Program-made: the position numbers and the translations under genes | DNA from: a virus | IMG/VR virus record: IMGVR_UViG_3300035698_007277 | Coordinates: 1-42,947 of that record | Direction: 5' to 3' (one strand) | Length of the DNA stretch: 42,947 bases | The notes under the pieces: model-generated | Seen by the model: only the letters and a program-made list of their open reading frames with translations | Database searches by the model: none | Told to the model about the DNA's origin: nothing | Shown here: piece by piece, positions 4,401-39,594 of the stretch | Numbering within the stretch: the first letter of the stretch is position 1 | Layout: each line of letters opens with the position of its first letter

Positions 4401-5687
4401 GTGGAAAATCACAATTATCAAGCGTTGCACCTGCATACTGACATGGGGTCACTTATGGATGGGGTAGCCACGCCAGAAGAGTACGCCGACCGCGCATCAG
4501 AAATTAAGATGTCTGCTATAGCATGTACTGATCATGGAAGCCTTTCTGCTCACAGAAGGTTTTATCGAGCAGCAAACAGCAGGGGAATAAAGCCTATTCT
4601 AGGGGTAGAAGCATACATTACTGGAGATAGGTTTGATAAAAGAGATAAGTCTGAAAGAACAACTCCCCTAGACCTTGTTTACAACCACATAGTTATATTG
4701 GCAAAAAATGATCAAGGGCTTGAGAACCTTAATCGTCTCAATGAAATAGCCTGGAATGAAGGTTTTTATAGAAAGCCAAGAATTGATTTTGAAGTCTTAG
4801 AGAAGTACCGTGAGGGGCTTATCGTTTCCTCTGCCTGCATGTCTGGGCTGCTTAATAAGGCGATTGAGGTTGATGACTACGCCGCAGCAAAGGCACACCT
4901 TAATTGGTTTGGAGAAAGGTTTGGGGATGACTTTTATGTAGAGATAATGCCACACAATGTTAAGGGCATGAACAAGTCATTGATAGAGTTGGCAGATGCC
5001 AACGGTCACAAGATCATTGTCACTCCAGATTGTCACCATGCGACGGTAGATCAAAAAGTTATCCAAGAGATCATGTTAATCAACAACACTCATGCAAAGG
5101 TTCAGAAGGATACCTCTTACGAAAAGTCTAGGAAAATTGAAGACCCCATGAAAAGACTTGACTATCTTTATGGGGAAGGGCGAATGATGTCATTTAATAA
5201 GTTTGACATTCACCTCCTTTCAGGTCAGGAAATGCACGAGGCAATGGGAGAAGACTCTCGAACAGATATGTTTGAAAACACTAATGAGATTGCCAATAAG
5301 GTAGAAGAGTATACGATGCATCGCAACCTTAACCTGTTGCCTGTGGAGCATAAGAATCCAGATGATCAGATCAGAAAGAACTGCTTTTCTTGGCTGAAGG
5401 ACAAGGGGCTTGAGGAAAATGAAGAGTATGTAGGCAGACTTGAAGAAGAACTTGACGCTATTAAACAGAAAAGGTTTGCGTCATACTTTATTGTTGTTCA
5501 GAACATGATTAACTGGGCAAAGAAAAATGACATCATGGTTGGCCCAGGGAGAGGTAGTTCTGCTGGATCTTTGGTTTGCTATGCTTTAGGCATCACCGAC
5601 ATTGACCCCATTAAGCATGGTTTGCTATTTTTTAGATTTATTGATGGTGGTTCTGCTCAATACGATCCAAAGTTTAATGTGATATAA
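4401..5687 (+). CDS. dnaE: DNA polymerase III alpha subunit, N-terminal half (split gene)
   Basis: 428 residues from a GTG start. The PHP domain opens with [14 protein letters not shown] and [11 protein letters not shown] and continues through residue ~260. The palm follows with the signature [19 protein letters not shown] near residue 385. The reading frame then runs through GLLFFRFID and stops shortly after, just before the catalytic aspartates, which are encoded in the separate downstream half (ADIDSD). The cut is exactly where a LAGLIDADG endonuclease gene has been inserted. The halves are in different frames, so they must work as two chains or be inactive. Confidence 0.88.
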
Positions 5688-5688
5688 T
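5680..5688 (+). promoter_or_regulatory. Extended -10 (TGATATAAT), promoter of the homing endonuclease
   Basis: TATAAT at 5683-5688 with a TG one base upstream overlaps the stop codon of the dnaE N-half and lies six bases before the endonuclease ATG. This predicts a leaderless transcript that lets the mobile gene be expressed independently of its host operon. Confidence 0.6.
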
Positions 5689-5694
5689 TTAAAC

Positions 5695-6483
5695 ATGGGT
5701 ATAGATACTGATGTTCAAAAACAAATAAAAAGTTTGTACTTAAGTGGAAACTCAGGACATAAAATTTCTCAAATAACTGGTATCTCTAGTGGAACGGTGT
5801 ACAATTATCTAAAACTATTAGGCATAACTAGGTCCAATAAAATAAACTCCAGAAAATATTCTTTAAATCATGAGTATTTTTCAGAAATAGATTTAGAGCA
5901 TAAAGCCTACTGGCTAGGATTTATTCAAGCCGACGGATATCTTCTGACTGGCACTCCCGGAATTGGAATTGCACTAGCAGAGGTGGACAGGGGGCATCTA
6001 GAGAAATTTAAAAACAGTATTGAGGCCGATTATCCAATAAAAACATATAGGGGGAATGGGTATTCTCAAAACGATTATGTCAGGATAATAGTTAAAAGTG
6101 AAAAAATGTGGAACGATTTAAACAATCTGGGAGTTACTCCCCAAAAAACAAAAACAACGCTTCCCATAAAAGTAGATAAAGGACTTGAGCGGCATTATAT
6201 TCGTGGTTTAATGGATGGGGACGGCTCAATAAAAATAAGTAAAAGTTCAAAGGCTGGGTATCGTGGAGACTTTGTTTCTGCCACTCCAGAAATGGCTACA
6301 TATATTGCAGACGCCCTTGGAAAGGGTGCAGTAAGATTTGATAAAAACAAAAATGTTTGGTACAGTGAATTTACTCTAACAATAAAGAATTTGGACTATT
6401 TATATGACGAAGCAACTGTCTATCTTTCAAGGAAACATGCAAGAGCGGTTCTCGGAAGATCTAGAATTTCAAAAGTTAGTTAA
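5695..6483 (+). CDS. LAGLIDADG homing endonuclease inserted in dnaE
   Basis: 262 residues. An N-terminal helix-turn-helix (KISQITGISSGTVYNYLKLL) precedes two LAGLIDADG motifs: AYWLGFIQADGYL near residue 67 and HYIRGLMDGDGSIKI near 163, so it should act as a monomer with pseudo-twofold symmetry. It separates the two dnaE halves, is in a third frame and overlaps the downstream half by 47 bases. That excludes an intein and leaves no room for a group I intron. Such genes usually cut the uninterrupted allele in competing phages and spread by repair. Confidence 0.9.
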   Translation: MGIDTDVQKQIKSLYLSGNSGHKISQITGISSGTVYNYLKLLGITRSNKINSRKYSLNHEYFSEIDLEHKAYWLGFIQADGYLLTGTPGIGIALAEVDRGHLEKFKNSIEADYPIKTYRGNGYSQNDYVRIIVKSEKMWNDLNNLGVTPQKTKTTLPIKVDKGLERHYIRGLMDGDGSIKISKSSKAGYRGDFVSATPEMATYIADALGKGAVRFDKNKNVWYSEFTLTIKNLDYLYDEATVYLSRKHARAVLGRSRISKVS

Positions 6484-8719
6484 GTTAGTAGAAGAGTCAA
6501 AAAAAGATTTTGATATATCTTGGGCAAGTGACGAACTTTACGCTATCGGCAGACTAGGTATGTCTAATTATTTTTTGGAACTTCTTGGGAAAAGAGTAGA
6601 CAATCCAAATCATTCGACGGTAGCCTATGCAATTGGAGTTACTGGTGACCGACCTACATCCTATCCCGTAGGTCTTGTTGTAGACCGTGGAAGAGACGAC
6701 GCTGCCGATATTGACTCAGACATAATGGATAGCCGACGCGAGGAGGTAAAGGACTACCTGGAGTCTCAATATAAGCACGTTGCATCCATTGCCACTTTCC
6801 TTCAATTTAAGGATAAGGGTGTTGTTCGAGATGTGGCAAGATGCTTTAACATTCCTCTAGCAGATGTTAATCGTGTGCTAAAAACGGTTGATACATGGGA
6901 AGAGTTTACTACTTCTAAAAATACATTTTGGTTTAGAGAAAAGTATCCAGAGGTGGAAGTTTATGGAGATCAGTTAAGGGGTAGAGTAAGAGCAACAGGT
7001 GTCCACGCAGCAGGTGTTGTCACCTCAAAAATTCCCATTAGCAAGGTTGCCCCCATGGAAACTAGAAGTGTGACTGGTAGCACCAGCAGACTTCCTGTGG
7101 TTGCAATAGACATGGACGAAGCAGCAGACATTGGCCTAATTAAGATTGATGCTCTGGGACTAAAGACTCTCACTGTGATTAGCGATACTCTCAAGGTTGT
7201 TAAAGATAGACACGGGAAGAAGATAGACCTGCATTCGATAAACATGGAAGATCCAAACGTGTACTCCATGCTTTCCGATGGCCATACAAAGGGTGTGTTT
7301 CAGTGTTCTGCTGCCCCATACACAAGCCTATTGATAAAAATGGGGGTACGCAAGTTTGATGAACTTGTAGCGTCCAACGCTCTTGTTCGTCCAGGTGCTA
7401 TGAACACCATTGGAAAAGAATACATATCCAGAAAGTATGGTAAAAGTAATGTGGTGTATTCAACCCCGATTATGAAAAACTTTACAGAAGAAACCTACGG
7501 AACAATTTTGTATCAAGAGCAGGTTATGCTTGCCTGCATAAATGTTGGTGGCATGACTATGGGCGAAGCAAATAAGGTTAGAAAGATTATTGGCAAAAAG
7601 AAAGACGCCCAAGAGTTCGATCAATTTAAAGAGTTGTTTATTCGTAATGCTACTGCAAAAATAGGCAAGAAAGATGCTGAAAAAATGTGGCATGATTTTG
7701 AGGCACACGCGGGGTACTCTTTCAACAAGAGCCACGCTGTAGCATACTCAACCCTGTCTTACTGGACTGCATGGCTTAAGTATTACTACCCTATTGAATT
7801 TGTCTTTTCTCTACTTAAAAATGAAAAGGACAAAGACATGCGTACAGAATATCTTATTGAGGCAAAAAGAATGGGCATACCAATTAAATTGCCACATATT
7901 AATGATTCAGGCGCAGACTTTAAGATTGAAGGAAGGGGTATCCGATTTGGGCTTTCTTCAATTAAATTTATATCCGATACCATTGCTAAAAGATACATTG
8001 AAAGCAGACCATTTAAGAGTCTAGAAGAGGTCAAGGGGTTCTCGTTTACCAAGGGTAGCGGAGTAAACAGTAGAGCGCTCAATGCCATGAACCTAATTGG
8101 CGCTCTAACCTTTCCAGACAATCCCATAGATGAAAAACAAGTTAAAGAAAACATGTACGAGTACCTAAATTTGCCAGAGTTTGTAACTCAGATTCCCCAG
8201 CACTACCATGCCCACATATCAACCGTTGAAGACTTTGACGAAAAGTCTGCTTTAATTTTGATGGGCATCGCTAGGGGGATAAAAAGAGGCAAGGGCTGGA
8301 GCAGAGTTGACATACTAGACTCTACTGGTGCTGTAGGAGTTTTTGATGATGAAGACACCTCCTTGGAACCAGGAAGGACGCACATCTTCTTAATTGGGTC
8401 TAATAGAATCCTAGAAGCAGTTCCTGTAGAAGATGTGGGTAAAAGTGATTCAGCGCTGGTACGGGCACTAAATTATAAGCAAGTACCATTCGGTGAAAAA
8501 GAGTATTTGGTTGTCAAAATCGCTCCACGCATAACTAAATCTGGGTCAAGAATGGCTACGCTGATATTAATGACTCACGAGCGAGAATTTATTTCATGCA
8601 TTGTGTTTCCTAGCAAATTCTCACAAATGTATGTTGGGTTACAGGAAGGATCGGCATATAAGATTGACTATAGCATTAATAAGGACGATGACCTTATTTT
8701 CCAAGATATTGTGCAATGA
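6437..8719 (+). CDS. dnaE: DNA polymerase III alpha subunit, C-terminal half (split gene)
   Basis: 760 residues from ATG 6437, chosen because aagga lies just upstream; an in-frame ATG at 6404 lacks one. After about 95 unusual N-terminal residues comes DRGRDDAADIDSDIMDSRREEV, the palm active-site aspartates, then DKGVVRDVARCF, the fingers (VFQCSAAPYTSLL, ASNALVRPGAMN, TYGTILYQEQVM) and FEAHAGYSFNKSHAVAYS typical of DnaE. A helix-hairpin-helix region and a C-terminal OB-like part follow. Together with the upstream half all catalytic parts are present, so the two chains could reassemble. Confidence 0.87.
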   Translation: MQERFSEDLEFQKLVKLVEESKKDFDISWASDELYAIGRLGMSNYFLELLGKRVDNPNHSTVAYAIGVTGDRPTSYPVGLVVDRGRDDAADIDSDIMDSRREEVKDYLESQYKHVASIATFLQFKDKGVVRDVARCFNIPLADVNRVLKTVDTWEEFTTSKNTFWFREKYPEVEVYGDQLRGRVRATGVHAAGVVTSKIPISKVAPMETRSVTGSTSRLPVVAIDMDEAADIGLIKIDALGLKTLTVISDTLKVVKDRHGKKIDLHSINMEDPNVYSMLSDGHTKGVFQCSAAPYTSLLIKMGVRKFDELVASNALVRPGAMNTIGKEYISRKYGKSNVVYSTPIMKNFTEETYGTILYQEQVMLACINVGGMTMGEANKVRKIIGKKKDAQEFDQFKELFIRNATAKIGKKDAEKMWHDFEAHAGYSFNKSHAVAYSTLSYWTAWLKYYYPIEFVFSLLKNEKDKDMRTEYLIEAKRMGIPIKLPHINDSGADFKIEGRGIRFGLSSIKFISDTIAKRYIESRPFKSLEEVKGFSFTKGSGVNSRALNAMNLIGALTFPDNPIDEKQVKENMYEYLNLPEFVTQIPQHYHAHISTVEDFDEKSALILMGIARGIKRGKGWSRVDILDSTGAVGVFDDEDTSLEPGRTHIFLIGSNRILEAVPVEDVGKSDSALVRALNYKQVPFGEKEYLVVKIAPRITKSGSRMATLILMTHEREFISCIVFPSKFSQMYVGLQEGSAYKIDYSINKDDDLIFQDIVQ

Positions 8720-27386: not shown

Positions 27387-27460
27387 TGGCGTGTAGCACA
27401 ATTGGCAGTTGCAGTCGGCTGTTAACCGACAGGTTGAAGGTTCGAGTCCTTCCACGCCAG
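27387..27460 (+). tRNA. tRNA-Asn (GTT)
   Basis: 74 bases with a complete cloverleaf: acceptor TGGCGTG/CACGCCA, anticodon stem GTCGG/CCGAC with loop CTGTTAA, T stem GAAGG/CCTTC with loop TTCGAGT, discriminator G. CCA is not encoded. It begins one base after the glycosyltransferase stop, so it is probably cut from that transcript. Confidence 0.92.
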
Positions 27461-27486
27461 CAAAATATATATTAACTTACAAAAGA

Positions 27487-27819
27487 ATGGTAAAAAACAT
27501 GTATACATATAAAGCAAAAGTAACAAAAATTGTTGATGGAGATACCATTGATGTAGATATAGACTTAGGTTTTTATATAAGAGTAACAAAAAGAATTAGG
27601 TTTTCCTTTATCAATGCCCCGGAAAGATATACGGATGCTGGGAAGCAGGCAACAAGTTTTTTAAACTCAACTATTCCAGTGGGATCTTTTGTTATTATAA
27701 AAACAGAGATTGACAAAGCAGATAAATACGGCAGAGTTCTTGCAGAAATATTTACCGATGAGAACAGTATTAGTGTGAACAAGACCATGATAGAAAAAGG
27801 ATATGCAGAATATTACTGA
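27487..27819 (+). CDS. Thermonuclease-type (SNase) nuclease
   Basis: 110 residues from ATG 27487 (ATG 27499 is an alternative). The SNase fold is seen as AKVTKIVDGDTIDVDID (calcium-site DGDT), IRFSFINAPERYTDAGKQA (Arg and Glu catalytic residues) and DKYGRVLAEIFTDENSISVNKTMIEKGYA. No signal peptide, so it probably acts in the cytoplasm, for instance on host DNA or RNA. Overlaps the next gene by 17 bases. Confidence 0.85.
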   Translation: MVKNMYTYKAKVTKIVDGDTIDVDIDLGFYIRVTKRIRFSFINAPERYTDAGKQATSFLNSTIPVGSFVIIKTEIDKADKYGRVLAEIFTDENSISVNKTMIEKGYAEYY

Positions 27820-28336
27820 TAGTAGGAACATCACAGACTTCTACAAGTATTGGGAGCATGATGCTATTGTTGCTGACCTTAATACCAAAAGGAACGAATT
27901 TGTTGTTGCTGTTGAAAGAGTAAACGGAGACTTTAACTTTAGCGTATGTATTAGAAATGCTAATGCCTTCCTTGCTCGTAAGATATACCGCACAGGGAAA
28001 CGACAATATGATAAGAGGGGTGCTGTGGGGACCCATCATTATGAACATGTCGGTTATGAAGAGAGTGTGGTTAATCTAATTAACAGATATCGGAAAGAAG
28101 GATACAGAATTGTTGCTGTTGACAATGTTGGCGCGGCGCAAGACATCAGGTCCTACCGATGGGAGCCTAAGTCTTTTATGATTTTTGGGGAAGAAGGCAG
28201 AGGTCTGTCTGAAGAGGCCGTTGAGTTGTCCGATGATTTAGTTTATATTCCTCAGTTTGGTTCAGTTAGATCGCTAAACCTAGGAACAGCCAGCGGGTTA
28301 GCCATGTACGACTATGCCTGTAAGGTATTGACATAG
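27803..28336 (+). CDS. SpoU/TrmH-type RNA methyltransferase (SPOUT)
   Basis: 177 residues. The SPOUT knot is recognisable: NFSVCIRNANAFLARKIY near residue 50 (Asn/Arg motif 1), SFMIFGEEGRGLSEEAVELSDDLVYIPQFG (motif 2) and SVRSLNLGTASGLAMYDYA (motif 3). It should 2'-O-methylate ribose in tRNA or rRNA. Lying next to tRNA-Asn, it may protect or tune phage or host tRNAs. Confidence 0.85.
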   Translation: MQNITDSRNITDFYKYWEHDAIVADLNTKRNEFVVAVERVNGDFNFSVCIRNANAFLARKIYRTGKRQYDKRGAVGTHHYEHVGYEESVVNLINRYRKEGYRIVAVDNVGAAQDIRSYRWEPKSFMIFGEEGRGLSEEAVELSDDLVYIPQFGSVRSLNLGTASGLAMYDYACKVLT

Positions 28337-33036: not shown

Positions 33037-33110
33037 GCGGCATTCGTATAAAAGCATTACGGCACTCTTCCAAAGTGCAAAAGTCGGGGCAGTACCGACA
33101 TGCCGCTCCA
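33037..33110 (+). tRNA. Atypical tRNA-Gly (TCC) with encoded CCA
   Basis: 74 bases. Acceptor GCGGCAT/ATGCCGC pairs 7 of 7, the anticodon stem GCACT/AGTGC pairs 5 of 5 with loop CTTCCAA, and the T stem GTCGG/CCGAC pairs 5 of 5. Discriminator T then CCA are encoded. G1-C72, C2-G71, G3-C70, C35, C36 and U73 fit glycyl identity. But the T loop is GGCAGTA instead of TTCRANY, and the D arm has only a 3-bp stem and no GG, so the usual elbow contacts are missing. It may be non-ribosomal, decoy, or degenerate. Confidence 0.65.
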
Positions 33111-39405: not shown

Positions 39406-39441
39406 CATAAAGACTTGACTTTTATTGGTTTTCGGGGCCGG

Positions 39442-39514
39442 TGCCCTTGGCAGGATTCGAACCTGCGACTAATGGATTAGAAGTCCACTACTCTTTCCGC
39501 TGAGTTACAAGGGC
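39442..39514 (-). tRNA. tRNA-Arg (TCT)
   Basis: 73 bases on the - strand: acceptor GCCCTTG/CAAGGGC, anticodon stem GTGGA/TCCAT with loop CTTCTAA (anticodon TCT), T stem GCAGG/CCTGC with loop TTCGAAT, discriminator A, CC partly encoded. It reads AGA, the preferred arginine codon of the left arm. Confidence 0.92.
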
Positions 39515-39519
39515 GTGAG

Positions 39520-39594
39520 TGCGGTGAGTGGGATTTGAACCCACGATCTCCTGCTTATAAGACAGGGGCCTTGACCAGACTTGGCGATCACCGC
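39520..39594 (-). tRNA. tRNA-Ile (TAT)
   Basis: 75 bases on the - strand: acceptor GCGGTGA/TCACCGC, anticodon stem CCTGT/GCAGG with loop CTTATAA (anticodon TAT), T stem GTGGG/CCCAC with loop TTCAAAT, discriminator A. It reads ATA directly, which bacteria usually do with a CAT-anticodon lysidine tRNA; ATA is common in this phage. Five bases separate it from tRNA-Arg. Confidence 0.9.

Follow-up and report, generated by a model that had tools for sequence, protein, structure and literature searches.

Across cellular tRNAs the two tertiary pairs of the elbow, G18-Psi55 and G19-C56, are almost invariant, so that little natural covariation is available to test the elbow. Staphylococcal non-proteogenic tRNA-Gly species, which carry a UCC anticodon and depart from the standard in the D and T loops, are used for cell-wall bridges. 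Both the ribosome and RNase P stack on the flat face offered by the G19-C56 pair (PMC4810234). Purine-purine combinations at residues 54/58 are described for eukaryotic tRNA-Ala(AGC) and initiator tRNA-Met, and the same paper reports that the tRNAs of bacteria and archaea lack them (PMC7566577). Both tRNA-Pyl and type II mitochondrial tRNAs are active without the G18 G19 and T-Psi-C set (PMC7609411).

The DNA analysed here, referred to as the window, is the whole stretch of 42,947 nt of the IMG/VR virus record IMGVR_UViG_3300035698_007277, and contains a 74 nt tRNA-Gly(UCC) gene, including an encoded CCA, at 33037..33110 on the plus strand. The gene is made up, from 5' to 3', of the acceptor strand GCGGCAT (33037..33043), which pairs with ATGCCGC (33100-33106) by pairs that are compensated in relatives; the dinucleotide TC; the D arm GTA-TAAAAGCAT-TAC (33046..33060), with A18, G19 and C20 at 33053, 33054 and 33055; a single G; the anticodon arm GCACT-CTTCCAA-AGTGC (33062..33078), with TCC at 33069-33071; the variable loop AAAA (33079..33082), with A48 at 33082; the T arm GTCGG-GGCAGTA-CCGAC (33083..33099), whose loop residues G54 G55 C56 A57 G58 T59 A60 occupy 33088-33094; and the discriminator U73, followed by CCA (33107..33110).

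Seventeen pairs, all Watson-Crick, are formed by the acceptor (7/7), anticodon (5/5) and T (5/5) stems, the D stem has 3 bp, and U8 and U33 are in place. The minimum free energy of the fold is -27.2 kcal/mol (z = -4.6), and an equally good fold was obtained in none of the shuffles. Scanning both strands of the window for a cloverleaf followed by CCA returned this single place, and nothing in 60 dinucleotide-shuffled windows; three other tRNA genes of the phage were not reported by the scan, since they either do not encode CCA or have arms of other lengths than it demands. The letters used for identity by GlyRS are present as U73, C35, C36, G1-C72, C2-G71 and G3-C70. The first-pass annotation had described a tRNA-Gly(TCC) with 17 perfect stem pairs, an encoded CCA, glycyl identity bases, the T loop GGCAGTA and a D loop devoid of GG, and the letters agree with it on each of these points.

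The gene was not called by ARAGORN, and Rfam model RF00005 did not recognise 33037-33110 even when E values up to 10 were allowed, the gathering threshold not being reached. Both programs found the other tRNA genes of the same phage, tRNA-Asn(GTT) (27387..27461, plus strand), tRNA-Arg(TCT) (39440..39514, minus strand) and tRNA-Ile(TAT) (39519..39594, minus strand), which are ordinary, have canonical elbows and served as controls. A family model (R1), whose alignment includes the window sequence, scored 87.5 bits on it (E 3e-24). No tmRNA match was found in the window by ARAGORN or Rfam, and the anticodon arm of the tRNA-Gly is intact.

Compared with canonical bacterial tRNA-Gly(UCC) (RF00005), the window gene shares the cloverleaf, a D arm of the form GTATAA..G.ATTAC, the UCC anticodon, U73, CCA, the G19-C56 pair, U8, A14 and A21. 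In place of the canonical G18 G19 and U54 U55 C56 R57 A58, it has A18 G19 and G54 G55 C56 A57 G58; the differences consist of A18-G55 for G18-U55, G/G at 54/58, A/A at 15/48, A16 and A60, along with the Rfam score below gathering and the ARAGORN miss. When D loops of equal length are compared, GTATAATGGTATTAC of ordinary tRNA-Gly corresponds to GTATAAAAGYATTAC, with G19 kept and G18 to A as the sole elbow change, so that the G19-C56 pair can still form. The swap written at equal loop length leads from the ordinary GTATAATGGTATTAC to GTATAAAAGTATTAC, with C56 kept and U55 replaced by G. The non-canonical elbow pointed out by the first-pass annotation is therefore real, but its view that the elbow contacts are lacking did not hold: they are exchanged, not lost, with A18-G55 replacing G18-U55 and G19-C56 retained. 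The literature searched, which covered little subscription content, contained no earlier description of the A18-G55 exchange.

Eukaryotic tRNA-Ala shares with the window tRNA a purine-purine 54/58 combination coupled to R15/A48, and has a purine at residue 16 as well as at residue 60; in tRNA-Ala and initiator tRNA-Met, however, residues 54/58 are A/A, and no change of 18-55 is described (PMC7566577). In tRNA-Pyl and type II mitochondrial tRNAs the loops are lost or shortened and other core contacts are used, whereas the window tRNA has loops of normal size, in which a pair has been exchanged.

A search of phage genomes by blastn matched Pelagibacter phage Mosig and an unannotated gut phage contig. 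The swapped tRNA-Gly is annotated as a hypothetical protein in Mosig (locus L002, 1494-1567), and is unannotated, directly 5' of the bS21 gene, in HTVC008M (locus L267, 4001-4074); in both of these isolated pelagimyophages its anticodon is ACC, an uncommon choice for a four-codon box in bacteria. Related phages of Streptomyces were considered as a source and rejected, the tRNA-Gly of phage Wofford being canonical. Pattern scans were also run on viral contigs, and some of the resulting counts are lower bounds. With the D loop left free, 48 contigs were obtained: 32 contain fully formed cloverleaves, each with the D loop TAAAAG (32/32), and the other 16 are chance matches with unpaired stems. 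The converse scan, in which the D loop was held constant and any T loop accepted, yielded 113 tRNAs, none of them with U55 and all with G55-C56 (113/113), carrying the T loops TGCAATA (41), AGCGTTA (35), GGCAGTA (34) or single variants (3). In 241 phage tRNA-Gly genes, including those from a scan for canonical UCC genes, residues 18-55 are A-G in 123 cases, G-T in 116, G-C in one and T-T in one. Since the cloverleaf scanner requires U33 and a G53-C61 pair, and patterns served to fetch the loci, these variant frequencies carry a bias; marine contigs that hardly differ from each other make up many of the relatives, and distinct sequences were used for the key counts.

An alignment of 35 distinct sequences, i.e. 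34 family members and the gut-phage gene, showed that 99.9% of stem cells are paired and that 14 of the 20 pairs change on both sides. Double-sided changes amount to 144 cells, compared with 35.5 for shuffled alignments and no more than 23 for slid controls. The first acceptor pairs are conserved in the tRNA-Gly relatives, as is U73, found in 42/42 distinct ones, while conservation of C35 and C36 is not independent evidence, because both lay in the search pattern. Conservation with compensatory stem changes, proposed in the first-pass annotation as a check, was thus observed, and homologues with broken stems, named there as the contrary result, were sought and not found.

The phage A18-G55 elbow family is defined here by A18/G55, G19/C56 and compensated stems, all of which are present in the window tRNA. 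Its distinct members have T-A, A-T, G-G or C-A at 54/58, with G54/G58 accompanied by A48 in 14 of 14 distinct sequences and T54/A58 by C48 in 15 of 15; residue 59 is always U and residue 60 always A. The gut-phage tRNA-Gly, with D loop TAATGGTAG and T loop GTCAGTA, keeps G18-U55 and already has G-G at 54/58, and is an intermediate between the canonical and the swapped elbow. It is the sole carrier of this T loop (MT836092), no further case being found in viral contigs.

Most of the glycine relatives are similar to the ones carried by T4-like pelagiphages, which infect the Gram-negative SAR11. Seven contigs carry two swapped glycine tRNAs each, one TCC with T loop GGCAGTA and one GCC with AGCGTTA; on some pelagiphage-like contigs the swapped UCC and GCC tRNAs together cover the four glycine codons. 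A promoter-like TTGAC(A/T) N17 TATATT ends a few bases 5' of the tRNA in loci L004, L006, L008 and other marine contigs, where a sliding clamp gene is often located just 3' of it. One further contig, 99.96% identical, represents the same virus as the window; its residue 20 is T, where the window has C.

The pelagiphage contigs had suggested a rewiring limited to glycine, which is ruled out by the occurrence of Thr, Ile, Gln, His and other anticodons. When the D and T loops of the swapped tRNA-Gly were searched for in combination with non-glycine anticodons, 52 of 56 matches were real tRNAs; Thr(GGU) prevails among them, next to Ile, Gln, His and further isotypes, and the source is frequently a very large phage. 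A test independent of the bait was performed on all cloverleaves in the collected loci, after dropping the bait D arms and keeping only nine-base D loops, chosen because the risk of misplacing residues 18 and 19 is lowest there. The 150 phage tRNAs obtained are G-T (118), A-G (29) or mixed (3) at 18-55 (Fisher p = 4e-30), and the exchange spans about ten isotypes, including Arg, Thr, Cys, Gln, Ile and Asn. Considering all D-loop lengths, GG is found at 18-19 in 0/123 tRNAs with G55-C56 versus 554/560 with U55-C56. This covariation suggests a direct contact between A18 and G55. The 19-56 pair covaries as well, in a Watson-Crick-like manner, since the few U56 phage tRNAs carry A19 and most A56 ones carry U19; A19-U56 or U19-A56 was noted in seven loci, one of them tRNA-Ile1 of phage T5.

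When an unrelated D arm was used as bait, 111 real A18-G55 tRNAs were found, mostly Arg(UCU), with T54-A58 intact in nearly all; the 18-55 change alone looks like the simplest step of the rewiring. Pairing of Y20 with G55 in a short D-T helix is not a general solution, residue 20 being A in most of the A18-G55 tRNA-Arg(TCT) genes. T5-like phages were also discarded as carriers, their tRNA-Cys match having proved canonical at 18-55. Canonical tRNAs adjoin swapped ones within the same phages. ARAGORN recovers 556/560 of the U55 tRNAs versus 37/123 of the G55 ones.

In 84,980 species genomes no tRNA-Gly with a GNCAGTA T loop and the same D arm was found, and an A18/G55 tRNA-Gly was present on one contig only, from the MAG TMED93, which may be viral or cellular; a chromosomal origin of the swapped tRNA-Gly was rejected on this basis. 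The general A18/G55 pattern (AGCTCA) occurs in 0/399 Pseudomonadota genomes versus at least 120 viral contigs, a comparison which is supportive only, the collections differing in size. A similar arrangement exists in alphaproteobacterial two-piece tmRNA (RF01849, RF04321), whose T loop is GGC[AG]GTA, or GGCAGTG in two sequences. An A-G is found at the place of G18-G19, together with GGCRGTA-type T loops, in 31/31 of these tmRNAs, whereas one-piece tmRNAs have G-G and a TTCRANN T loop in 29/29; the 18-19 register was counted from the conserved GAC and may be one nucleotide off. Alphaproteobacterial tmRNA thus apparently shares the alternative elbow, a strong parallel though not a proof. It differs from the window tRNA in being permuted, made of two pieces, endowed with a tag frame, devoid of D stem and anticodon arm, and charged with alanine. 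HTVC008M encodes a complete permuted tmRNA (locus L290, 3104-3462; 145103-145461), with the tag ANFNEYALAA and a T loop, TGCAATA, of the swapped type.

The closest relatives of the terminase and helicase of the window are those of Streptomyces phages and other actinophages, though this is no proof of the host. At 34%, GGA ranks first among the glycine codons of the window, and tRNA-Arg(TCT) and tRNA-Ile(TAT) likewise serve codons ending in A (AGA 44%, ATA 36%). No strong sigma-70 site is present directly upstream of the tRNA-Gly gene, which is preceded by a gene for a pyrimidine-dimer DNA glycosylase (PF03013; 32197-32694, plus strand). A DNA polymerase III alpha gene (4401-8719, plus strand) is apparently split by an ORF (5695-6483) that, by eye, resembles a homing endonuclease. 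A SpoU/TrmH-family 2'-O-methyltransferase gene (27803..28336, plus strand; Pfam 5e-25), nearest to tRNA Gm18 enzymes (PDB 1zjr, 7edc, 1v2x), is located a short distance downstream of tRNA-Asn; its product matches the NCBIfam TrmH model at 5.7e-16, under the cut-off of that model, and similar proteins are found in Rhodococcus phages Trina and NiceHouse. A link between this methyltransferase and residue 18 is possible but unproven, and may be a coincidence.

Altogether, the window element very probably is a functional phage elongator tRNA-Gly(UCC), decoding GGA and GGG with a compensated alternative elbow. The assignment to decoding is based on the identity letters, the standard anticodon, the retention of G19-C56, the fit to the GGA codon and the coverage of the glycine box by UCC and GCC. 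We infer that the tRNA would be transcribed, matured, charged with glycine and used in decoding, supplying GGA/GGG reading during infection. In its elbow A18-G55 would replace the G18-Psi55 tertiary pair, G19-C56 would stay, and neighboring contacts would shift in step, with G54/G58 for T54/A58, A15/A48, A16 and A60. By established enzymology, the substrates of TrmA, TruB and TrmH (Gm18) are U54, U55 and G18, respectively. Since G54 and G55 leave no substrate uridine for TrmA and TruB, and A18 leaves none for TrmH, the window tRNA would fold without the usual elbow modifications. Phages may keep the variant because it removes these modification substrates, to escape host enzymes or nucleases that read the elbow, or as a neutral alternative in fast-evolving genes. 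Tentatively, and with the odds against it, A18-G55 could be a second self-consistent elbow, at which phage tRNAs of many isotypes, and alphaproteobacterial tmRNA, would have arrived repeatedly because it would free the tRNA from TruB, TrmA, TrmH and the enzymes or nucleases that read G18-Psi55, while G19-C56 would preserve the fit to the ribosome.

A defence-related purpose is rather improbable, but stands best among the alternatives. The swapped decoding tRNA would replace a host tRNA-Gly cut or trapped by an elbow-reading enzyme, to which A18, G55 and G54 would make it invisible. Such a role would suit a swap that phages show in numerous isotypes and that hardly occurs in cells, and phage tRNAs are known to escape tRNA-cutting defences through changes in the anticodon loop (PMC10264068, PMC11555353); no elbow-specific defence nuclease was identified, however, canonical tRNAs lie beside swapped ones in the same phages, and alphaproteobacterial tmRNA has a like elbow with no defence reason.

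The dedicated non-ribosomal use suggested by the first-pass annotation, i.e. a glycine donor of the staphylococcal cell-wall type, charged but kept off EF-Tu and the ribosome, is very unlikely. The glycine isotype, the UCC anticodon and the changed elbow would fit it, but many other phage isotypes, among them Arg, Thr, Cys, Gln, Ile and Asn, have the same elbow, G19-C56, the ribosome-stacking pair, is kept, no Fem-like or other tRNA-dependent transferase was recognised among the window ORFs searched, and most glycine relatives resemble those of phages of the Gram-negative SAR11. The staphylococcal tRNAs serve cell-wall bridges; the phage exchange is compensated and extends beyond glycine. Neither cell-wall use nor a role of the window tRNA-Gly as a decoy for a tRNA-cutting defence found support.

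Even less credit is due to a mimic of tmRNA, in which an elbow like that of alphaproteobacterial tmRNA would bind SmpB and disturb ribosome rescue. Some of these tmRNAs have exactly the T loop of the window tRNA, GGCAGTA, and a phage tmRNA devoid of a coding part has been reported as an inhibitor of tmRNA in E. coli (PMC11915505), but a complete anticodon arm occupies the place of SmpB, the identity is glycine and not alanine, and the closest proteins of the window phage point to actinophages. A degenerate gene or attachment-site relic, also envisaged in the first-pass annotation and compatible with the failure of tRNA finders, is the least probable of all and is rejected, because the stems are intact and compensated across 34 distinct glycine relatives, the gene is full length with CCA, and U73 and the first acceptor pairs are conserved.

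Phage tRNAs supply the covariation that is scarce in cells, switching between G-U and A-G at 18-55, between G-C, A-U and U-A at 19-56, and between T-A, A-T, G-G and C-A at 54/58. This variation makes the elbow testable from sequence, and indicates that rewiring is possible without losing the molecule; it raises the question of whether escape from host tRNA enzymes drives the exchange. The analysis exposes a class of phage tRNAs about 70% of which are missed by the finder used here, ARAGORN. For marine phages, this affects the number of tRNAs counted as well as the prediction of hosts; most pelagimyophage genomes, as an example, have been reported to be devoid of tRNA genes (PMC7029224).
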